DNA from: a virus
Virus record (IMG/VR): IMGVR_UViG_3300028596_000009
Location: 102,824 to 166,823 of that record
Direction: 5' to 3' (one strand)
Length of the DNA: 64,000 nt
Shown: positions 13,124 to 49,252 of the stretch, one piece after another
Position numbering within the stretch: position 1 is the first letter of the stretch
How the letters are laid out: each line of letters opens with the position of its first letter
The notes under the pieces: model-generated
What the model saw: the letters and a program-made list of their open reading frames with translations, nothing else
Told to the model about the DNA's origin: nothing
Databases searched by the model: none
Position numbers and translations under genes: made by a program

Positions 13124-14059
13124 GTGCCCCGCCGCCCCACCGGACGCGCACCGGGGCGGCCCAGGGGACCCGTCACAGCGGAAGGAAAGATCGAACGGGC
13201 CCGCACCATTCTCCCGGATGTGCGGGCCTTCCCGTTTCTGTGCAACGCCGTCGACCGCTCCCTGGCCGCACCCGACACGGTGCTGCGTCGTGAGCAGACC
13301 TCGGACTCCCGCAACGTGATTCTCGTTCACCACTACACCCCCGCAGAACGCGGTCAGATCCTGGCCTTCGCCTGGTGGGTGCACACGAACAGAAGCCGCT
13401 GGGACCGGGAAGAACTCCGAGCCGCCGTCATGATCCTGTCTCCGCTGATGATGTTCTCCTCCTCGTTCTTCGAGGAGATGTCAGGGATTCCCGGGTCGAC
13501 AGTCAAGAAAATCATGGTCAAGCCGCCCCAGGTTACGGCCGCCCGTGTCACCGGCACCTGCGACATGGTCGTCATCCACCGACTCCTGGAATCCGCAGCT
13601 CAGGGCATGGCAGAATACCGGGAGACCGTCCGGGAGTTGTCGATCGCCAAAGGGATTCCCGGCGCGATGCTGGCTCGAATCTCCGGCATTCCCAGGGAAG
13701 TTCTGATCCGTCCCGAGCGAGGAGTCAACTTCTTCGCCGAGAAGCCCGACCTCCTCATGGAGCGCGTCTGCACCGCGAACCAGCGCATCACGTACATCAG
13801 CAGGAACCCTCAGGAAAGGAGAGGATATGACCCACAGCCTGGTAATCAGCGGGCCGTCCGTGATGCCCTCGCAGGTACGTATCTGGGTGAATTCTGTGCT
13901 ACCCATGCTCCCGTACCCGACGACGGCGCGCTTCCGTACCACTTCGCAATCCCTGGGTTCCCCGTTCGGCGTCAGGGGGATCCCGTCGGAATCGACGACC
14001 TGCGAAGGATGCAGGAGTGGCAGATGCTCTACCACCTTCCGATTTCCGCCGCTCTATGA
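13124..14059 (+). CDS. Unknown protein overlapping the polymerase gene (311 aa)
   Basis: GTG start behind AGGAAAGAAAAG. The product is basic at its N-terminus (a Pro/Arg-rich stretch), then helical. Residues 110-220 contain two small helix-turn-helix-like units (MSGIPGSTVKKIM and ISGIPREVLI). No enzyme motif is seen. Its last 233 bases lie in another frame over the start of the polymerase frame. Protein-like sequence continues to the TGA at 14057-14059, exactly where protein-like sequence begins in the polymerase frame. Either the two genes overlap extensively or they are joined by a +1 frameshift. Function unknown; position suggests a replication accessory factor. Confidence 0.6.
   Translation: MPRRPTGRAPGRPRGPVTAEGKIERARTILPDVRAFPFLCNAVDRSLAAPDTVLRREQTSDSRNVILVHHYTPAERGQILAFAWWVHTNRSRWDREELRAAVMILSPLMMFSSSFFEEMSGIPGSTVKKIMVKPPQVTAARVTGTCDMVVIHRLLESAAQGMAEYRETVRELSIAKGIPGAMLARISGIPREVLIRPERGVNFFAEKPDLLMERVCTANQRITYISRNPQERRGYDPQPGNQRAVRDALAGTYLGEFCATHAPVPDDGALPYHFAIPGFPVRRQGDPVGIDDLRRMQEWQMLYHLPISAAL
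13812..13824 (+). promoter_or_regulatory. Ribosome binding site used to set the polymerase start
   Basis: AGGAAAGGAGAGG with its GGAG core 5 bases before ATG 13827 is one of the best Shine-Dalgarno sequences in the window. It supports initiation there, even though the following about 75 codons look weakly protein-like. Confidence 0.55.
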
Positions 14060-17000
14060 CCTGCGCGCCCGCGCCAACACCCGCGAGGTCATCCTCGCCA
14101 ACCTGCTCCGCGCAGTCCGCCACATCGCTGGGGAAGACATACCCAAGCCCGACGGCGTGTACCGGCTGCTCACCTCCCGCGAGGAAGCCGAATCCTGGAT
14201 CAAGGTCCGGCAGAAGACCCACGTCCTCGCCATCGACATCGAGGGCGACGGCAACCCCGACACCGTCCACCCCTCCCGCCACGAGATCCTGTGCCTCGGG
14301 ATCCACGACGGGGCCGAGACGGTCGTCCTGCCCGAGGAGCTGTTCCTTCCCGGACTGTGGCCCGAACTGGCCGACCTGCTCGAAGGTGCCGTCACCGTGG
14401 CACACAACGGCAAGTTCGACGCCGCCGTCCTCGGCTGGGTCCTGCGGGGAACGAACAACCCGATCCACATCACGCACGACACGATGCTCGCCCACTACGC
14501 CCTGTGGCCCGCCGGAGGCAACGACGACGAGCATGCCGACAAGTCCTCCACGGCCTTCGCGTACCACGGCCTGAAGCTCCTCGGCGTCCTCTACAACGGC
14601 GTCGAGAACTGGGCGCTGGACCGCTCCGAGTACGAGAACATGCGCTCCGTCCCTCTGAAGCGGCTGTGGAAGTACAACGCCGAGGACGTCCAGCACACCC
14701 ACCTGCTGCTCCAGTTCTTCCGTGACCAGTTCCGCCTGCGGCCCGAGCAGCTCCATGCCTACATGACCGTCTTGATGCCCGCTTCCAACCACCTCACGTG
14801 GCAGGAGGACTCCGGCGTCTGTGTCGATGTGCCCTACGTTCAGACCGAGCTGGTACCCGGCATGACGCAGGAGGTCGAAGACCTCACCCGGGACCTCATC
14901 TACAAGGCGAACCTGATCCTGCCCGGCCACGCGTGGCCCCTGGTCGCGCCCGCGAAACGGCTGCCGGGGGAGACTTCCAAGGAGGCCCGCCGGTTCAACC
15001 CGGGCTCGGCCGACCAGGTCCGCGTCATCCTGGAGAGCCAGGGCGTCGAGCTGCCCGTCGACCGTGAGTCGAAGTCGAAGAAGGGCTCCACGTCCAAGCG
15101 GACCCTGGAGCTGCTGATGCGCGACTCCCGCAAGGGAGACCCGTTCCTCACCAGGCTGCTGGAGCGGCGCAAGGTTGAGAAGATCCTCGGTACGTACGCC
15201 AACCCCCTGGCCACCCGGTCGCACACCAACCACCCCTACCAGGGTCTGCGTGTCTTCCCCGGACTCCACCTGCACAAGACGCTCACCGGCCGTCTGGCGT
15301 CGTCGAACCCGAACATCCAGAACCAGCCCAAGCTGGCCACGATCCGGCGCGCCTACATCCCCTCAGGGCCCGGCCGGGTGGTCTTCCAGGTCGACTACAG
15401 CCAGGCCGAGCTGCGGGTCATGGCCGTCCTCGGCAAGGACCGATTTCTTACCAAGATCTTCAAGGACCCCAGCCTCGACGTCTTCGACGGCATGATGCCC
15501 GGCATTTTCGCTGACATCGACTTCGAGAAAAACCCCGAGAAATACTCGGAATTGCGTCGTCCACTTAAGGCGTGCGTCCCGCTCGACACGATGATCCTCA
15601 CCAAGCGGGGCTGGCTGAAGCACGACGAGGTCCGCATCGGCGACGAGACGCCCGGTCTGACTGCCACCGGTCGTACTGAGTGGACTCGCATCAGCGCCAT
15701 CCACCACCCCGGCAAGCAGAAGGTCTACCGCCTCGGACACTCCCGTTGGAGCTTCCTGTGCACCTCCGACCACCGGTGGGCCGTAGGGAAGCGCAACCGC
15801 AGGGCGAACCAGTACGGCGAGCCGGTCATGGTCGAGGCCAAGGACATCACCAAGGACTCGGTGATCTACGTGGCCGGTGAGCTGGCGGATGAGAACATCT
15901 CCTTCCTCACGGACGACGAGGTGCGCATCCTGGCCTGGATCCAGTCGGACGGGTACCTGAAGGTGGCACAGTCCACCGGTGGCCCCTCCCAGGGTCGTGA
16001 TGGATCCAAGCGCCAGGTGAACGCTTCGATACAGCAGGCCAAGCCGCAGTGCGTCGAGGAGATCAAGGAGCTGCTGAGGGACGTTCCGCACGGCGTGGGT
16101 GTGCGTCCTGGAGTGAACCACGAGACGGCGTACGACTTCCGCCTCTCCAGCCCCTGGACGCGTGACCTGCTCAGCCGAGCCAGACTCCTAGACGGAGGGA
16201 TCGAGGACTTCGTTCTCCGGCTCCCGGCTGCCCAGCGACACATCTGGCTGGACACCTTCTGGAAGGCTGAGGGGCACATGAACGGCAAGGCCCGCTGCAT
16301 CACCCAGAAGCGCGGCGAGAAGGCCGACGCCATCGCCCTGGCGGGATACCTGTGCGGCTACCGGGTCAGCGTCACCACCCACACCAAGGGAAGCGGTGTC
16401 GTCAAGATCCTGCTCAGCCACGTGACCGACGTGGGCACCAACACCATGACCATGACCGAGCACTCCGAGGAAGAGGTCTGGTGCGTCACCACGGAGAACG
16501 GTAACTGGACCGCCCGCCAGGGTGACGTGACGGCCAACACGGGTAACTGCGTCTACGGGCTCGCCTTCGCCAGAGGTGCGAAAGATATCGCGGAAGACCT
16601 CGGAATGGAGACCGCCTACGCGCAGGGAATCATCGACGGCTTCCTCTCCTCCGCGCTCGGCGTGACCCGGTGGCGGCAGGACGTCATCGACCACATCCAG
16701 TACGAGATCCCCCTGGTCAGCCGTCTCGGCCGGTACTTCCTCCACCAGCCCGTCAACGACAAGAACCGCGACGACATCAACCGCTCCGCCCTGTCGTTCC
16801 TGCCCCAGTCCTCCGCCTCCGACTGCTGCCTGCTGGCCGCCGTGGAGCTGGGCAAGCACATCCGCAGCAACGACCTCGACTGGGACATGAGCGCCCTCAT
16901 CCACGACGCGATCATCCTCGACGTCCCGCAGGACCAGGTCGAGGAGGCGATGAAGGTCACCGGCGACTTCATGGTGGCGTCGGCGGCCAAGTGGTTCCCC

Positions 17001-17135
17001 GAGGTCCCGTTCGCGGTCGACGGCACATGGGGCTGGTCGTGGGCCGACTTCGACGACAAGAAGCTCCAGAAGAACATGAAGACCCTGACCTCCGACGAGA
17101 TCAAGACGGTCCGCCGCGAAGATCTGGTCGGCTGA
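13827..17135 (+). CDS. polA: Family A DNA polymerase with 3'-5' exonuclease domain and an intein (1102 aa precursor)
   Basis: Exonuclease motifs: AIDIEGDG (Exo I), AHNGKFDAAVLGW (Exo II) and YNAEDVQHTHLL (Exo III). Polymerase motifs: VDYSQAELR (motif A), RRPLKA...CVYGLAFARG (motif B, interrupted by an intein) and IHDAIILDVP (motif C, HDA in place of HDE). No 5' nuclease domain. After splicing the product is about 777 residues. It replicates phage DNA. The start is set by the Shine-Dalgarno sequence at 13812-13824, but residues 1 to about 76 overlap the upstream gene and look out of frame; convincing sequence starts at PLYDLRARANTREV near 14050. GTG codons further down are alternatives. Confidence 0.85.
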   Translation: MTHSLVISGPSVMPSQVRIWVNSVLPMLPYPTTARFRTTSQSLGSPFGVRGIPSESTTCEGCRSGRCSTTFRFPPLYDLRARANTREVILANLLRAVRHIAGEDIPKPDGVYRLLTSREEAESWIKVRQKTHVLAIDIEGDGNPDTVHPSRHEILCLGIHDGAETVVLPEELFLPGLWPELADLLEGAVTVAHNGKFDAAVLGWVLRGTNNPIHITHDTMLAHYALWPAGGNDDEHADKSSTAFAYHGLKLLGVLYNGVENWALDRSEYENMRSVPLKRLWKYNAEDVQHTHLLLQFFRDQFRLRPEQLHAYMTVLMPASNHLTWQEDSGVCVDVPYVQTELVPGMTQEVEDLTRDLIYKANLILPGHAWPLVAPAKRLPGETSKEARRFNPGSADQVRVILESQGVELPVDRESKSKKGSTSKRTLELLMRDSRKGDPFLTRLLERRKVEKILGTYANPLATRSHTNHPYQGLRVFPGLHLHKTLTGRLASSNPNIQNQPKLATIRRAYIPSGPGRVVFQVDYSQAELRVMAVLGKDRFLTKIFKDPSLDVFDGMMPGIFADIDFEKNPEKYSELRRPLKACVPLDTMILTKRGWLKHDEVRIGDETPGLTATGRTEWTRISAIHHPGKQKVYRLGHSRWSFLCTSDHRWAVGKRNRRANQYGEPVMVEAKDITKDSVIYVAGELADENISFLTDDEVRILAWIQSDGYLKVAQSTGGPSQGRDGSKRQVNASIQQAKPQCVEEIKELLRDVPHGVGVRPGVNHETAYDFRLSSPWTRDLLSRARLLDGGIEDFVLRLPAAQRHIWLDTFWKAEGHMNGKARCITQKRGEKADAIALAGYLCGYRVSVTTHTKGSGVVKILLSHVTDVGTNTMTMTEHSEEEVWCVTTENGNWTARQGDVTANTGNCVYGLAFARGAKDIAEDLGMETAYAQGIIDGFLSSALGVTRWRQDVIDHIQYEIPLVSRLGRYFLHQPVNDKNRDDINRSALSFLPQSSASDCCLLAAVELGKHIRSNDLDWDMSALIHDAIILDVPQDQVEEAMKVTGDFMVASAAKWFPEVPFAVDGTWGWSWADFDDKKLQKNMKTLTSDEIKTVRREDLVG
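15573..16547 (+). other. Intein in DNA polymerase motif B with LAGLIDADG endonuclease (325 aa)
   Basis: Begins at Cys 583 of the precursor (CVPLDTMILTKRGW) and ends at Asn 907 (DVTANTGN), with Cys 908 as the +1 residue. Block B carries TSDH, so it is class 1. The penultimate residue is Gly instead of His. Two dodecapeptide motifs of a LAGLIDADG homing endonuclease are visible (ILAWIQSDGYL and WLDTFWKAEGHM). Removing it restores an uninterrupted O-helix motif RRPLKA-CVYGLAFARG. The segment is coding throughout with no stop or frameshift, so it is probably active in splicing. Confidence 0.9.
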
Positions 17136-42432: not shown

Positions 42433-44103
42433 TCAATCCTCGTTATCTGCATCTTCCTGCGAACCTTCGTCTCGCAGTTCGTGGTCACCCATCGACGGAG
42501 GATCAACCTGCGGAGGACCGTTCTTCGTCGACTGTGCAGAAGCAACGGAAGCCTCCGCCTGCTGAGTCGGCTGCGGCTGGAGAATGAAGGGAAGCTTGCT
42601 CGGCGGAGGAGCCTGCCGGGGAAAATCATCCCATTTGTCGTGCCACGCGTCGAGCACCATCGCGCGCGCTTCGTCTGCGGTGAAAAGTCCGAGCCTCACA
42701 GCCATGTTGATGGCCTGGAGGCGACGGTGAATCGGCTCTTCCGAGATCTCGGGCCACCGCAGACGAACCTTCAGGCCGAGCAGACGGAAGATGATCCGGA
42801 ATGCTTCGTCCATCATCTTCTGACGCATCTGCATCACGAGAACCGTGGACGTGTCGAGAGCGGCGGCGGTAGCCCGGGTGCCCAGAGTCGGGTCTTCGGT
42901 CAGAGCGGGGAGCGGCACATCGAGCGCGGCTGCGATCATCGCGGCGAGCGGGCGCCCGGCGTCGAAGTCCACCTTCGTGTTTCCGCCGACTGCGGAGAGA
43001 TCCTGTCCGGCGCCCAGAACGGCCGACGCGCCTACCGAGAGAGGCTGACCGGTCGTCGGGTCCGTGCGGGGAGCCTGTGCGAGCTGAGCGGCCGTACGGC
43101 GCACTCCACGGGAACGCTCGCTCGTGACCTTCCACGCGAACCTGGCGTACGCCTTCGTCAGCGTCGCGCAGTTCTCCAGGTACTCCTTGTACGCCTTCGT
43201 CCACCACACGGCGGGAAGGACGTCCGGAACCCCCCATCGCCATCCGACCAGACGGTTGAACGGCACATGGACGATGACCTTGTTGTGGTCGACCGGGTCG
43301 CCGTCGATGCGATTGCGGTTGCTGCGTCGGCTGTCTGGCTGGTCCACGAGCAGGTTGGTCGGGTACCACACGGAAACGTTCCGGTACGAGGCGCTGGCGG
43401 AACCGTCCCTGTTCATGTTCGTCCAGGTCCGCGATCCGCGTCCGAAGTCGGGGTCGGTGACCGGCTTGGTGTCGATGTCGCCGCTGTCGAGTTCGAGGTC
43501 CCAGTCGTTCCAGGTGCGCCTGATGTACAGGATCCGCTCCCGGTTGCCGCGCTGGGAGACCGCTTCGGTGATTTCCTCGAACGGCACGCGCTGGACCGTT
43601 TTGGCCTTCTTGTCCACGAGGAAGAACAGGTTGCCGTCGGTGGCGGCGGTCAGCTCGATCTCCATCTGGGCCAGAGAGCCCGTCAGGACGTCTTCGACAC
43701 CCGGCGGAAGGGTCGGTTCGGTGTTCACACTGCGAGGGCGCCCAGGGCCGCCGGAGACGAATTCCTTCGCGACGACGCTGACGCCGGATCCCCAGATGTA
43801 GCCGGTGCGCACCTTCAGCCCGCGCTCCACGAGCGGATTGACGGTGGCGACTGCGCGGCACAGTTCGCTCGCGCGGTGAAGTCCTTCGAGCGTGAAGGAG
43901 TTGGAGGAGTCGGCCACGCCCGCGAGCGGGCGCCAGCCTATGTCTTCGAGTGCGAGCTGCGCGGTCGAGAACTCACCGGCCTCCTGGAGCATCTCGTCGG
44001 TGACGAGACCGGTGAGTTCTTCGTTCCTGGCTTCGAGGGTGTCGACGAGCGCCCTCACTTCCTTCAGGGACATCTCGTCGACAGACTTGCCCATGTGATC
44101 CAT
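42433..44103 (-). CDS. Portal protein (556 aa)
   Basis: Follows the terminase block with typical portal features: residues 55-120 helical with RASELCRAVATVNPLVERGLKVR; central beta-rich wing (VPFEEITEAVSQRGN, ILYIRRTWNDWDL); HVPFNRLVGWRWGVPDVLPAVWWTKAYKEYLENC; and the C-terminal crown helices (LDTSTVLVMQMRQKMMDEAFRII). It forms the dodecameric vertex through which DNA is packaged. C-terminus is acidic and disordered. Confidence 0.85.
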   Translation of the reverse strand: MDHMGKSVDEMSLKEVRALVDTLEARNEELTGLVTDEMLQEAGEFSTAQLALEDIGWRPLAGVADSSNSFTLEGLHRASELCRAVATVNPLVERGLKVRTGYIWGSGVSVVAKEFVSGGPGRPRSVNTEPTLPPGVEDVLTGSLAQMEIELTAATDGNLFFLVDKKAKTVQRVPFEEITEAVSQRGNRERILYIRRTWNDWDLELDSGDIDTKPVTDPDFGRGSRTWTNMNRDGSASASYRNVSVWYPTNLLVDQPDSRRSNRNRIDGDPVDHNKVIVHVPFNRLVGWRWGVPDVLPAVWWTKAYKEYLENCATLTKAYARFAWKVTSERSRGVRRTAAQLAQAPRTDPTTGQPLSVGASAVLGAGQDLSAVGGNTKVDFDAGRPLAAMIAAALDVPLPALTEDPTLGTRATAAALDTSTVLVMQMRQKMMDEAFRIIFRLLGLKVRLRWPEISEEPIHRRLQAINMAVRLGLFTADEARAMVLDAWHDKWDDFPRQAPPPSKLPFILQPQPTQQAEASVASAQSTKNGPPQVDPPSMGDHELRDEGSQEDADNED

Positions 44104-44162: not shown

Positions 44163-44492
44163 CTACTTCACAGGGACTTCCTGTGCCTCATCCCCGCCCT
44201 CGGCCGTGGACGGGTCCTTCTTCTCGGGCAGGCACTCGACGATGCCGGGCCCCTCGTTTCCTATCCCGAGCTTGGCGACGGACGTGACGACCGAGACGAG
44301 GACCGCGAACACGGCCACCGATCCCATGGTCGACCAGGGGAGGACGCCGAGTCCGGAGTCGGTGATGTCGGTCGCCGTGAACACGACGAGCTGGGCGAGG
44401 ATGGCCTGGGCACCGGTGAAGACGGAACGCTCCGCCGTCGCGATCCAGAACCTCTTGTCTGCGAGCATGGACGCCCTGCTGGGCTTGGTCAT
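44163..44492 (-). CDS. Holin, r1t-like family (109 aa)
   Basis: ATG 44492 begins TKPSRASMLADKRFWIATAERSVFTGAQAILAQLVVF, the pattern of actinobacterial r1t-type holins: a short basic N-terminus, first membrane helix, a central loop with TATDITDSGLGVL, and a second helix SMGSVAVFAVLVSVVTSVAKLG. The C-terminus is charged and acidic. It should open the inner membrane for the amidase. Unusually it lies between terminase and portal, not beside the lysin gene at 48380-49252. Confidence 0.8.
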   Translation of the reverse strand: MTKPSRASMLADKRFWIATAERSVFTGAQAILAQLVVFTATDITDSGLGVLPWSTMGSVAVFAVLVSVVTSVAKLGIGNEGPGIVECLPEKKDPSTAEGGDEAQEVPVK

Positions 44493-44647
44493 GGGGGACA
44501 CCTCACTTGCTTGGCTCCGCACCCCGATGTGGCGCGCGGAGTGCTCCACTCCTGAAGCACTTACACCAGGGTTCCATGATCGCCCCTCAGGACGACTTAT
44601 TCATCTGATTAGTCTGATGGCATTGACCTCAGTCACATGCGGGTGTA

Positions 44648-47600
44648 TCAGAACGGCGAGATCATCATGTCGCCATCCATGAACCCCTCCAGCTCCTCGG
44701 CCATGGTGTGCGCCGACTCCGCGTACATGTCGCCGATCTGAGGCCCACTCGCCACCGGGGCGGTCGCGTACGCCAGGGCATCGGCGAAGTCGGGGGAACG
44801 GCCATGCTTCGTACGCATCTCCTCCTTCGGCATGATGTACAGCTTCCCGTTTTTGAACAGGTAGAAGATGATCGCCAGATCGTCCTTGAGCTGCTCGTGC
44901 TCCATGATCTTCACCGAGCCGTTGCGCAGCATCTGCCGGAGCTGGTCGAACCAATACGCCCTCGCGTTGCCGTAACCGTGCACAGAACCGCCCACGTCCG
45001 TCGGAGCCGACGCGGAACCGTGCATCTCATACACCGAGTACCAGGCTTCGGGAAGCAGGGCGAGACGGGCGTTCAGGGTGTCGACGACACCGGCACCGAG
45101 ACCGACAGCGTCGACCCGGATCTCCACCCACGACGCCTTGAACTTCTCCTTCAGCTCCTCCGCCAGACGGATCACCTGGTGCGCGGAAGACGTCGTATCC
45201 GTACCCGACCAGGTCGCCTCGACCTTCGCGGTCCTGTTCATGTAGGAGACGACCACGTTCTGGTCCGCACCGAAACGGGCGACGTCGACCCCGAGCCGCA
45301 GAGTGCCGTGCGGGCCCGGCATCGGAACGTCGTCGAACGCTGAGGAGATGACCGCCGGAGGGAACAGCGAAGACTTCGAGACCTCGGGGAACTTGGCGTC
45401 GACCTTCGACATGTACCTCGGGTCGTCCTTGCCCCACGCCCGCAGGCGCTGCTCACACCACAGCTTCGAGACGAGGACGTCCTTCAGCAGCTCCGGCACC
45501 GGTTCGCCGGTGAAGTTCGGTGTTGAGGCGGCGGGTACGGACACCCTGTTCCACATGTCCGCCATCTCCGGCTTCAGGTACACCTTGCCGAACTCGGTGT
45601 TCCTGTCGTCCGGGTTTCCGATGGCGAGAATGCGGCAGCCCTCGGTGGTGGTGATGGCCTCGACACCGGTCCAGATCTCCTCCGGCACACCGCAGTTTCC
45701 GGACCAGAGGGTGTAGCCCTTCCGGCGAGTGAACAGCATGGCTTCCGGAGGTACGGAGGCGCAGTACACCATCCCCTCGTAGTCGATCTTCTTCAGGTTC
45801 TGCGGGTAGAACTTGATCTTCGAGTCTTCGCGGGGTCGGGTGATGACGTACCCGTCCACCGACGAGGTAGCGATGTGAGTCCCAAAGTCGGACTCGACAC
45901 CGGCAAGGCTCCGCTTCCGCACCACCGAAGGGCTGCCCGTCTTCAGGATCATCTCCTGAAGGTCGTCAGCCATCTGCGGTGACGAGGTGTAGATGATTCC
46001 CTGCCCCTGCTTCCAGTAGCCGTCACCCTTGAGGTAGGAGTCCAGCAGCATGCCGATCTGCCGCGCACTGGCCATGCGGGCGTACGTAGGCACTCGCTTG
46101 ACGAGGCAGCCATCTCCGAACTGAGCCAGATGGCGACCAAGCTGTGTGTCGGTGATGTGGACCTGCTTGCCCGTGTTCCGAGGTTTGAATCCCAAGCTTT
46201 CGGCCAGATCGAAGATCTCCTGCCTGACGTTATCGTCCTGCTGGGAGATGCCGATTCCGTAGACCTGACCACGATGCTTGATCAGGTGCCCTTCGCTCAG
46301 ATACCAGCCGAGGAAGGTCATCCAGTCGTCCATGTCGACGAATCTGGCCGGGAAGAACTTCCGCTCACTCGCATACTCGGGCAGCTCGAACTTCTCCTGG
46401 TCGGGGGCCGTCCAGGAGATCGTCTTCTTCATGTACTTGTCGGTCTTGCCCGCCAGCTCCTCCATCGGAGTCTTGCGCCAGGCAGTGTCCCGATTCCGGC
46501 TGCGGCCATGGAAGTACATGTCGTGATCGGGGGTGACGCAGAAGTTCGCGCCCTTCGCCTCGTACAAGTACATCGGACCGGTGTGCGGCTTCTTCACGAT
46601 CTTCTGAGGCTTTCGGTAGGTAGCCTCGTGAGTCGTCTGGTCCATGGTCAGGAGACGCTCATCGCCCGTCAGGTCGGCGAAGAGCTTCCAGCCGTCCTCG
46701 GTCATCACTTCGGTCTGGTCGTCGTGGCATGCCTCGTCGAGCACAACAAGGACATATCGTCGGTGGATTCCGTGGAAGGCGTGACGGTCACCGGTGGCGG
46801 GCTTGCGTCCGAATCCGAGTACCTGGCCCGAGTCCGACTTCCACTCGTCTCCCTGGGTCACGCGCCCGATCATCGGAAACCCGCGCTGCTGCGCCGTGGC
46901 GTGATGCTTCCGGATCTCCTCCCAGAGGATCTTGTTGACCTGGGCGTAGGTCGGGGCCGTCGAGACCACGATGGCGTCACCGGGCGGCCGGGTGTTGATC
47001 CACCAGCAGGCGAGAACCGAGGCGATCATCGAGTTGTGGGTCGGGATGCCTTCCTCGGTGCACAGGAAGAGATGGTCGAAGGCGTTGACCTGGATGCACT
47101 TCACGTCGCCGTCGGCGATGCGCTCCACCGAGACGATCTCCCACCCGCTCGGGCCCGGGTCGTACCGGTCGAGCTGGCGCTCCAGGGCCGCGTTCAGGGC
47201 AACAGCCCGGTCGTTCTCGGAGGGCAGCAGGTCGGCGGCTATTGGGGAGCAGACGGACAGTGTCCACGTCATCGACGCGTTGTGCCTGCGCTTGTGCAGC
47301 AGCGTGTGGATGCCGGATTCGGCCAGCGACTCCCTGACCCTGGTCAGTTCATCCGGCTGTGTCGTTCCGTGAGTGACCCACCGGAGCGCTGGACGGCCGG
47401 TGTCGTCGCACAGCCCCCTGCTCATCAGCAGGTCGGTCACCCAGAACTCGGCCCGCCACGGGTGGTCGGCTCGTTCCAGCCGGGGGATCCGGCCAGGGAT
47501 CACGAACTTCATGTTCCGGCTTGTCATGCTGAACAGGGCCCGGGTGTCGAAAACCTGGGTCAGGTGGTGCCATGCCCCGAAGTGGACTTTCTTCACCGAA

Positions 47601-48064
47601 GCGCGGGATGCGAAGAGTTCGGCCTTGGCTCGGCCACGGCTTACGAGGGTGGCCCACTTGTGGTCTCCGGATGCGACGACCTGGGTCTTGCGCCCGTCCG
47701 CCTCCAGTGTGATCCGGTAGCGGTCCTTGTGGTGAATCTCCGTGGTGGCCAGAACGAGGACGGGCTTTCCGTCCGATCCGTAGACCATGTCGCCGACGGA
47801 TATGTCACCCATCCGGCGGGGCCCTGAAGGTGTCGGTATGACAGTTTCGACATCAAGGGCCTTGCCGGTTCCGTGACATGAAGCGACCACGGTTCGCTTG
47901 TGGTTCACAACAGATTCGGCGATCTCGTTCTGCTTGCTCCAGAGGTGAACTCCCAGAACGTCGTGTGCCCATGCTTTCGGATCGCTCGCCCATACCGCCT
48001 GCTGTGCCTGACTGCGCAGCATCTCGGTCACGGAAGCGGCCACATCCCGGTCCGCTCTGCTCAC
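44648..48064 (-). CDS. terL: Terminase large subunit with two inteins (1138 aa precursor)
   Basis: The ATPase motifs are split by inteins: Walker A ASCHGTGK (residues 61-68) continues at Ser 345 with SMIASVLACWW, and Walker B VLVVLDEA (438-445) continues at Cys 791 with CGVPEEIWTGVEAI. After removal of 276 and 345 residues the mature product is about 517 aa, normal for terminases. The C-terminal nuclease shows RLGVDVARFGADQN, VDAVGLGAGVVD and DFADALAYA (metal-binding acidic residues). It packages DNA into heads and cuts concatemers. No Shine-Dalgarno sequence precedes ATG 48064, and no small terminase gene was recognised in the window. Confidence 0.9.
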   Translation of the reverse strand: MSRADRDVAASVTEMLRSQAQQAVWASDPKAWAHDVLGVHLWSKQNEIAESVVNHKRTVVASCHGTGKALDVETVIPTPSGPRRMGDISVGDMVYGSDGKPVLVLATTEIHHKDRYRITLEADGRKTQVVASGDHKWATLVSRGRAKAELFASRASVKKVHFGAWHHLTQVFDTRALFSMTSRNMKFVIPGRIPRLERADHPWRAEFWVTDLLMSRGLCDDTGRPALRWVTHGTTQPDELTRVRESLAESGIHTLLHKRRHNASMTWTLSVCSPIAADLLPSENDRAVALNAALERQLDRYDPGPSGWEIVSVERIADGDVKCIQVNAFDHLFLCTEEGIPTHNSMIASVLACWWINTRPPGDAIVVSTAPTYAQVNKILWEEIRKHHATAQQRGFPMIGRVTQGDEWKSDSGQVLGFGRKPATGDRHAFHGIHRRYVLVVLDEACHDDQTEVMTEDGWKLFADLTGDERLLTMDQTTHEATYRKPQKIVKKPHTGPMYLYEAKGANFCVTPDHDMYFHGRSRNRDTAWRKTPMEELAGKTDKYMKKTISWTAPDQEKFELPEYASERKFFPARFVDMDDWMTFLGWYLSEGHLIKHRGQVYGIGISQQDDNVRQEIFDLAESLGFKPRNTGKQVHITDTQLGRHLAQFGDGCLVKRVPTYARMASARQIGMLLDSYLKGDGYWKQGQGIIYTSSPQMADDLQEMILKTGSPSVVRKRSLAGVESDFGTHIATSSVDGYVITRPREDSKIKFYPQNLKKIDYEGMVYCASVPPEAMLFTRRKGYTLWSGNCGVPEEIWTGVEAITTTEGCRILAIGNPDDRNTEFGKVYLKPEMADMWNRVSVPAASTPNFTGEPVPELLKDVLVSKLWCEQRLRAWGKDDPRYMSKVDAKFPEVSKSSLFPPAVISSAFDDVPMPGPHGTLRLGVDVARFGADQNVVVSYMNRTAKVEATWSGTDTTSSAHQVIRLAEELKEKFKASWVEIRVDAVGLGAGVVDTLNARLALLPEAWYSVYEMHGSASAPTDVGGSVHGYGNARAYWFDQLRQMLRNGSVKIMEHEQLKDDLAIIFYLFKNGKLYIMPKEEMRTKHGRSPDFADALAYATAPVASGPQIGDMYAESAHTMAEELEGFMDGDMMISPF
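45695..46729 (-). other. Intein 2 in terminase Walker B, class 1 with LAGLIDADG endonuclease (345 aa)
   Basis: Starts at Cys 446 (CHDDQTEVMTEDGW) and ends at Asn 790 (GYTLWSGN) with Cys 791 as +1 nucleophile. Block B contains TPDH. Two LAGLIDADG motifs are seen (FLGWYLSEGHL and MLLDSYLKGDGYW). The flanks VLVVLDEA-CGVPEEIW become continuous after splicing, restoring Walker B. Penultimate residue is Gly. Frame intact throughout. Confidence 0.9.
47033..47860 (-). other. Intein 1 in terminase Walker A, apparent class 3 (276 aa)
   Basis: Starts at Ala 69 (ALDVETVIPTPSGPRRMGD) immediately after Lys of GxGK, ends PTHN with Ser 345 as +1. The N-terminal residue is Ala, not Cys/Ser/Thr. The three residues diagnostic of class 3 are found: Trp in block B (SGDHKW), Cys in block F (VKCIQV) and Thr in block G (PTHN). 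No clear LAGLIDADG motif; about 130 residues in the middle are of unknown type. Splicing would rejoin CHGTGK with SMIAS. Confidence 0.85.
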
Positions 48065-48379: not shown

Positions 48380-49252
48380 TCAGTCCTTGCGTGCTTCGAG
48401 GGCGGCTATGCGCTGGGTCAGCTTGTCGATCTTGGTGTTCAGGTTGGTGATGAGGGTGTGCACCTGAACGAGGTAGCCGTACGCATCGGGGATGCGCTTG
48501 CCCGCCTCGATCGATTCCGCGTCGGCGTTCGCGTTGCGGTACGCCCAGAACTCGTAGGGCTCCATGTCGTTCTCCTCGGGGGTGGTCGGAGGGGTGGTCG
48601 GCTTCCCGGGGCTCCAGGAGGCCGGGTGGAGGAGACGCTCCTCGATACGGGTGCGCAGGCCCGGCATGGCCACGACGTCGCCCGGCCCCTTGGGGTCGGA
48701 CTTCCAGTCGGACCACTCCAGGTGACCGATGGTGGACTTGTGTGTCCAGCCGTGTGCCCGGCACAGAGCAGCCGACGCGCGGACCATCGCCTCGACCTGA
48801 GCGGCGGGCCACGGGTCCACGCCGTCGCCCAGGTTCTCGCACTCGAACCCGTAGAAGTGTGCGTTGCCGTCGGTCGCGCCGGACTCGCCGTCGTGCTTGT
48901 CAGGTGCGGGCGGGCGGGTGCCGTAGTCCTCGTTGATAACGGCGTTCAGTACGTCCGGATCTCCGCCACCCGCGTGGTTGGCGCGCCCATGGCCGACGAG
49001 GTGAACCGTTCCGTCACGACGGATGACGCCGTGGCAGAGCGGGCCGGGGAGGGTGCCGGTGCCGTTGAAGCACATCGACACGGCGGACATGGTCTTCGGG
49101 GTGACGGTGTGGTGGAGCATCACACCGTTCACCGGACCCCAGGCTCCCTTGTGGTTCCTGTTGTTGGTCTGCCAGCCGGGGGTCTCGATGACAGTGACGC
49201 CTTCGGCCCGGAGTGCGGAGAGCAGAACGGATGCGGTCAGCGGAGTGCTCAT
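48380..49252 (-). CDS. Endolysin, N-acetylmuramoyl-L-alanine amidase (290 aa)
   Basis: Residues about 40-205 are an Amidase_2/PGRP domain: VMLHHTVT (zinc His), HLVGHGRANHAGGGD, FYGFECENLGDG, THKSTIGHLEWSDWKSDPKGPG (His and Lys/Asp near the active zinc). It cleaves the amide bond between MurNAc and L-Ala in peptidoglycan. The C-terminal region is a Pro-rich linker and a coiled-coil (NLNTKIDKLTQRIAALEARKD) without a recognisable wall-binding module. It is separated from its holin by the terminase gene. Confidence 0.9.
   Translation of the reverse strand: MSTPLTASVLLSALRAEGVTVIETPGWQTNNRNHKGAWGPVNGVMLHHTVTPKTMSAVSMCFNGTGTLPGPLCHGVIRRDGTVHLVGHGRANHAGGGDPDVLNAVINEDYGTRPPAPDKHDGESGATDGNAHFYGFECENLGDGVDPWPAAQVEAMVRASAALCRAHGWTHKSTIGHLEWSDWKSDPKGPGDVVAMPGLRTRIEERLLHPASWSPGKPTTPPTTPEENDMEPYEFWAYRNANADAESIEAGKRIPDAYGYLVQVHTLITNLNTKIDKLTQRIAALEARKD

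Follow-up and report, generated by a model that had tools for sequence, protein, structure and literature searches.

The gene for the terminase large subunit (TerL) of a large soil-type bacteriophage, represented by IMG/VR virus record IMGVR_UViG_3300028596_000009, very probably encodes a single precursor with two unrelated self-splicing inteins that arrived separately: intein A, an old resident of the Walker A motif whose homing endonuclease (HEN) is worn away, and intein B, an element of homing type at the Walker B motif, a reading built on sequence comparison and structural models. The stretch analysed (the window; 64,000 nucleotides, positions 102,824 to 166,823) is the terminal part of this 166,823-base record. 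The TerL gene, recognized by open reading frame (ORF) calling, PHROG and tblastn, lies at 44648..48064 of the window on the minus strand (as do all the parts of it described here), starts with GTG and specifies 1138 amino acids (aa).

Two inteins in the ATPase motifs of one terminase

Excision of aa 69-344 and 446-790 joins three exteins into a 517-aa protein in which the P-loop (CHGTGKS) and the Walker B motif (VLVVLDEAC) are both intact. By alignment, the N-extein (aa 1-68; 47861..48064) ends with the Walker A residues CHGTGK, and the middle extein (aa 345-445; 46730..47032) begins with the P-loop Ser, which is the +1 residue of intein A, and ends with VLVVLDEA; the C-extein (aa 791-1138; 44651..45694), comprising the remaining ATPase domain and the nuclease, begins with the Cys that is +1 to intein B. 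Intein A therefore splits Walker A as CHGTGK|S, and intein B follows directly after Walker B (VLVVLDEA|C). A preliminary description, made from the DNA sequence, had proposed residues 69-344 and 446-790 as inteins in the two Walker motifs, and empty sites, catalytic residues and modelled folds now show this to have been exact to the residue.

The spliced exteins are a terminase large subunit by PHROG (phrog_2, 7e-21), and match the annotated terminases of seven Streptomyces phages (184-200 kb) with 65-67% identity over 97-100% of the 517 aa (tblastn). A search of the phage's own genome with PF03354 gave no match, a result that we put down to the divergence of this TerL, which PHROGs did recognize, and an NCBIfam search gave nothing but side matches to polymerase models. 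Homologues without the segments run contiguously across each insertion site, so that alignment does not assign either segment to the terminase proper: both are missing, as exact in-frame blocks, from the relative L040, and the B site is empty in Streptomyces phage Kela and in most other relatives (see below). This comparison of sequences confirms that the interruption of a terminase by two inteins is not a product of chance.

A class 3 intein in the P-loop

Intein A (aa 69-344, 276 aa; 47033..47860) is, on sequence and model, a class 3 intein folded like the P-loop intein of mycobacterial DnaB, and its splicing chemistry is predicted accordingly from its residues. Position 1 is Ala in 24 of 25 aligned rows, the window included, and Asp in the other; with Ala there, the usual first step of splicing is impossible. 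The Trp (residue 69, block B:12; 47654..47656), the initiating Cys (residue 255, block F:4; 47096..47098) and the Thr (residue 274, block G:5; 47039..47041) of the WCT triad are each kept in 25/25 rows, as are the His and Asn that follow the Thr, and the +1 residue in the window is Ser. The triad is also present in 35/35 rows of a second alignment, in which, the rows having been picked by a pattern containing PTHN, W and C are the only free tests. The AlphaFold model of intein A (pLDDT 94) superposes on the class 3 DnaB intein of Mycobacterium smegmatis (6bs8_A: VIA Z 19.2, rmsd 1.4, 126 residues, 35% identity), which is matched by sequence too (phmmer 7e-13); the Hint models of Pfam and NCBIfam score weakly or not at all.

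About 145 residues separate the splicing halves of intein A. LAGLIDADG Pfam models found no match in the inteins A of the window or of L006, L036, L037, L039 and L042 (L numbers denote loci of relatives), that of the window giving a sub-threshold Hom_end_hint match alone, to its splicing part. Such models do recognize the class 3 inteins that Clavibacter phage CMP1 and Microcystis phage Mwe-JY05 carry at this site, and in a profile alignment (hhalign) of intein A with that of CMP1 there are gaps where the two acidic motif tips of CMP1 would need counterparts. We therefore interpret the insert as what is left of an endonuclease, lacking LAGLIDADG motifs. Among structures, the endonuclease I-DmoI is a weak Foldseek match to the model (E 0.06).

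A class 1 intein behind Walker B

Intein B (aa 446-790, 345 aa; 45695..46729) is a class 1 intein with an apparently intact LAGLIDADG homing endonuclease, again on sequence and model. It has Cys1, a TPDH block B, Met rather than Trp at B:12, Cys at F:4, and a terminal Gly-Asn followed by Cys+1. Cys1, T66 and H69 are found in 9/9 of the rows that reach them and the terminal Asn in 9/10, and +1 is Cys or Ser in 13/13 TerLs with an intein at the Walker B site. The acidic residues of the two LAGLIDADG motifs, Glu at residue 146 (46292..46294; E in 9/9 rows reaching this position) and Asp at residue 236 (46022..46024; D in 10/10 rows), are conserved, and PF14528 scores 31.9 bits (cut-off 22.5). Searching the PDB by sequence gave weak matches at most (best E 0.017); the best solved Foldseek matches of the AlphaFold model (pLDDT 89) are the HEN-bearing inteins TliVMA, PI-SceI and PI-PfuI, together with the endonuclease I-DmoI. 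Intein B is under purifying selection (dN/dS 0.15; HEN part 0.19).

Other members of the B family deserve mention. In L049 and L050 the C-terminal end reads WCLRS, with no Asn junction, and these copies are possibly broken or misassembled. Eight further B-family inteins (L048, L069, L075, L089, L092, L097, L098, L107) lie at GVD-type motifs of terminase-like proteins; we take this motif, from its look, to be the nuclease active site, and B-family inteins may thus target both active sites of terminases. The 1179-aa terminase-like ORFs of L092 and L097 have a second junction-like motif (HN[STC]) at residue 410 and may hold two inteins, and the TerL of Gordonia phage GMA6 has a B-family intein at yet another site.

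Distribution among relatives

Relatives were pooled non-exhaustively from several searches (the best 80 of 566 and the best 80 of 257 matches being kept), and the core set drawn from them consists of 41 different viral contigs whose exteins are 50% identical or more, the window not counted and same-contig duplicates merged. Intein A is filled in 32 of these, its downstream half is seen in six more, and its site is empty in none and not visible in three (L033, L045, L159); in other words, it is never absent where its site can be seen (38/38). Intein B is filled in four (L038, L039, L045, L058), empty in 36 and not visible in one, so that 36 of the 40 visible relatives are without it. (The B sites of L011, L013, L016 and L017, and of duplicate loci, were set by hand to empty after reading, the pattern having missed GDEACG and DESCG.) The seven Streptomyces phages (Satis, JustBecause, Kela, Kradal, EhyElimayoE, Quantum and Frankenweenie) all have intein A at the same site; intein B was not found in the three that were fetched, and none is apparent in the other four, for which two-piece tblastn matches were the evidence.

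In a wider set, and among the matches listed, 13 terminases, that of the window among them, have a B-family intein at the Walker B site. An intein occupies Walker A as well in the window, L039, L058 and L061, and in L038 as far as visible (A being partly cut off); Walker A is uninterrupted in L044, L046, L047, L051, L059, L060 and L062 (for L059 and L062 by eye, the pattern having missed the motif), and not visible in L045. Neither intein is present in L040, and the same is true of most of the terminases that are about 38-42% identical. The orthologues with none, one or both inteins that the preliminary description suggested looking for can therefore all be found: neither, A only, B only, and both. 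In L061, whose 1305-aa ORF is a terminase of another family, Walker A is interrupted at the same Lys|Ser position by an intein that starts with Cys, has LAGLIDADG-like motifs and is class 1-like, not class 3; double occupancy therefore arose more than once.

Separate histories of the two inteins

Intein A is an old, vertically inherited resident of this phage group. Its identity between relatives tracks that of the exteins (r 0.98 for 34 taxa, the 561 pairs being non-independent) and is the lower of the two in 97% of pairs, which points to vertical descent with fast drift. Intein B is a sporadic and probably mobile newcomer. Its identity does not follow the exteins: between the window and L044 it is 66% for intein B and 35% for the exteins, and between the window and L039 it is 84% for intein B, 67% for the exteins and 41% for intein A. 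The extein tree (in which the L062 row retained extra N-terminal residues, and from which L045 was omitted as partial) rejects a clade of window, L039 and L044 (AU p 8.8e-50), whereas the intein B tree contains that clade (82/88) and groups L059, whose extein is in a far family, with the window (98/95). L039, a metagenomic phage, was also compared with Kela: their exteins are 99.6% identical, and at the DNA level they differ by one precise 1,038-bp in-frame insert, intein B, present in L039 and absent from Kela, with uninterrupted flanks that are 96.1% and 98.5% identical. Intein B must have been gained, or cleanly lost, very recently there, and we infer the direction from the rarity of B.

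Several observations weigh against this account. The terminal Asn of intein B is preceded not by the His expected of class 1 inteins but by Gly, both in the window and in 9/10 rows; a phage class 1 intein with penultimate Gly has been published as splicing fully (PMC5050341; here and throughout, papers are cited for the parts of their text that were available), and since class 1 inteins of phages are known to vary in this way, the Gly does not exclude intein B from the class. In the B tree, L044 joins the window with weak support (82/88), and a topology with L058 in its place was not rejected (AU p 0.199). Between the window and L039, intein B (dS 0.81) is no less diverged at synonymous sites than the exteins are (0.80 and 1.07), and four-fold sites approach saturation, so the DNA does not show a recent transfer of B between these lineages. 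Co-conversion of the flanks was likewise not significant (circular-shift fractions 0.20 and 0.22).

Known terminase and helicase inteins

In the window TerL, known parts are combined in a new way. The literature compared comprised PMC5050341, PMC6195587, PMC7156551, PMC7886860, PMC3322345, PMC6687918, PMC10652959 and PMC9957025. A close parallel is the DnaB helicase of M. smegmatis (PMC6195587), whose ATPase domain contains two inteins: DnaBi1, of class 3 and HEN-less, interrupts the P-loop ahead of the Mg-coordinating Ser, and DnaBi2 is of class 1 and bears a HEN; intein A shares the DnaBi1 fold, but the host protein here is a terminase, and the second intein is at Walker B instead of motif H4. 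In mycobacteriophages (PMC5050341), TerL1-a lies between the P-loop Lys and Thr and TerL1-e in the Walker B motif, but these sites are listed for separate phage groups, the available text mentions no protein with both, and TerL1-e, unlike the class 1 intein B, is assigned there to the class 3 inteins. The TerL of cyanophage Mic1 (PMC7156551) also has two inteins, one with a HEN, and its authors also propose control of packaging, but one is in the ATPase and the other in the nuclease domain. The crAss-like Delta phage OBYQ01000140 likewise has two inteins in one TerL (PMC7886860), but both are of Hint-Hop type, with stop-codon reassignment. The closest isolated relatives, Streptomyces cluster BM phages and their kin, share intein A and, as far as was seen, differ in having no intein B; BM membership is stated in print for Satis, JustBecause and Frankenweenie, and the word intein is absent from the available text of two BM phage announcements.

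The preliminary description had called the filling of both motifs unusual. This stands insofar as our literature search, which covered neither subscription papers nor supplements, found no published terminase with both Walker motifs filled; it needs qualifying in that the two sites are known singly, TerLs with two inteins have been published, and double filling recurs in L039/L038, in L058 and in the unrelated L061.

Parasites, regulators or artefacts

Could the inteins nevertheless serve the phage? One possibility is domestication, in which the TerL of this group has come to depend on intein A as a class 3 splicing checkpoint, and the mobile intein B landed later to give a two-lock packaging motor. 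This would fit the loss of the endonuclease from an intein that no relative has lost, and we regard it as unlikely. A second, also improbable, is that both inteins persist because the rate at which they splice sets the timing of packaging or makes it conditional, for example through a redox-sensitive class 3 Cys. Here, too, it is relevant that intein A, without a recognizable endonuclease, is yet universal where visible; its insert still shows constraint when the window is compared with L006 (dN/dS 0.35), and oxidation inhibits its closest solved counterpart, DnaBi1, through the catalytic Cys (PMC6195587). However, the insert drifts when compared with L039 (dN/dS 0.92), intein A has Arg at the position of Cys48, the other disulfide-forming Cys of DnaBi1 (as read from the alignment), intein B is missing from near-identical phages, and five published TerL inteins splice readily (PMC5050341). 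The suggestion in the preliminary description that splicing may delay packaging is not supported, for these last two reasons and because B resembles a mobile element; packaging delay was considered and not adopted. A regulatory reading is possible for intein A and unlikely for intein B, and taken together the inteins resemble parasites stacked one upon another more than a purpose-built timer.

A normal terminase domain, or an insertion that does not splice, is a very improbable reading of either segment or of both, the weak or silent Hint models on intein A being outweighed by contiguous homologues, full conserved class 3 and class 1 catalytic sets, and folds matching solved inteins (Z up to 19). 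There is just as little to recommend an assembly artefact (a chimera) or an allele that is broken and cannot splice, since, although the window is known from a virus record and not from reads, its frame is open across 1138 codons with every catalytic residue present, and the double state recurs in the separate records L039, L058 and (A partly cut off) L038.

Gene neighbourhood and a third intein

Downstream of TerL are a head protease gene and, on the minus strand, genes for a holin (44163..44549) and a portal protein (42433..44103; phrog_10963); upstream is an amidase-type endolysin (48380..49252, minus strand). A third intein in the window (325 aa; 15573-16547, plus strand) lies inside an ORF for a family A DNA polymerase (13827-17135), with junctions RRPLKA|CVPLDT...ANTGN|CVYGLAF, a weak TIGR01445 match and exteins that match DNA_pol_A. 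Its site is presumably polymerase motif B, and its nearest counterparts in the phage collection are in the polymerases of Pseudomonas phages KIL1-KIL5 (31.5%).

Maturation of the precursor and its significance

How might an active terminase emerge from such a precursor? In intein A, the block F Cys would attack the Lys-Ala junction, after which the P-loop Ser (+1) would take over and Asn would cyclize, restoring Lys-Ser; intein B would follow the class 1 route through Cys1 and Cys+1, restoring DEA-C. Both would splice without helpers and in either order, and the ATP site would form only in the doubly spliced 517-aa protein. Since 276 residues lie between the P-loop Lys and Ser, and a domain of 345 aa comes after the DE of Walker B, it is reasonable to suppose from the sequence that the precursor is inactive until both have spliced. 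The endonuclease of intein A appears worn away, while intein B would spread by its LAGLIDADG endonuclease cutting the empty site, in the manner of a homing element at a conserved site in diverse terminases. We infer splicing of both inteins in vivo, cutting of the empty site and inactivity of the precursor; by analogy, the mycobacteriophage TerL inteins, of which all five tested splice readily and two cut empty alleles (PMC5050341), lend support to the splicing and homing steps and argue against a long delay.

The terminase thus offers a natural series (neither intein, A only, B only, both) within one essential enzyme, together with a near-identical pair, L039 and Kela, that differs by intein B and of which one partner, Kela, is an isolated phage whose Streptomyces host is cultured in the laboratory. 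This makes the question of whether such inteins are parasites or regulators of packaging directly testable.

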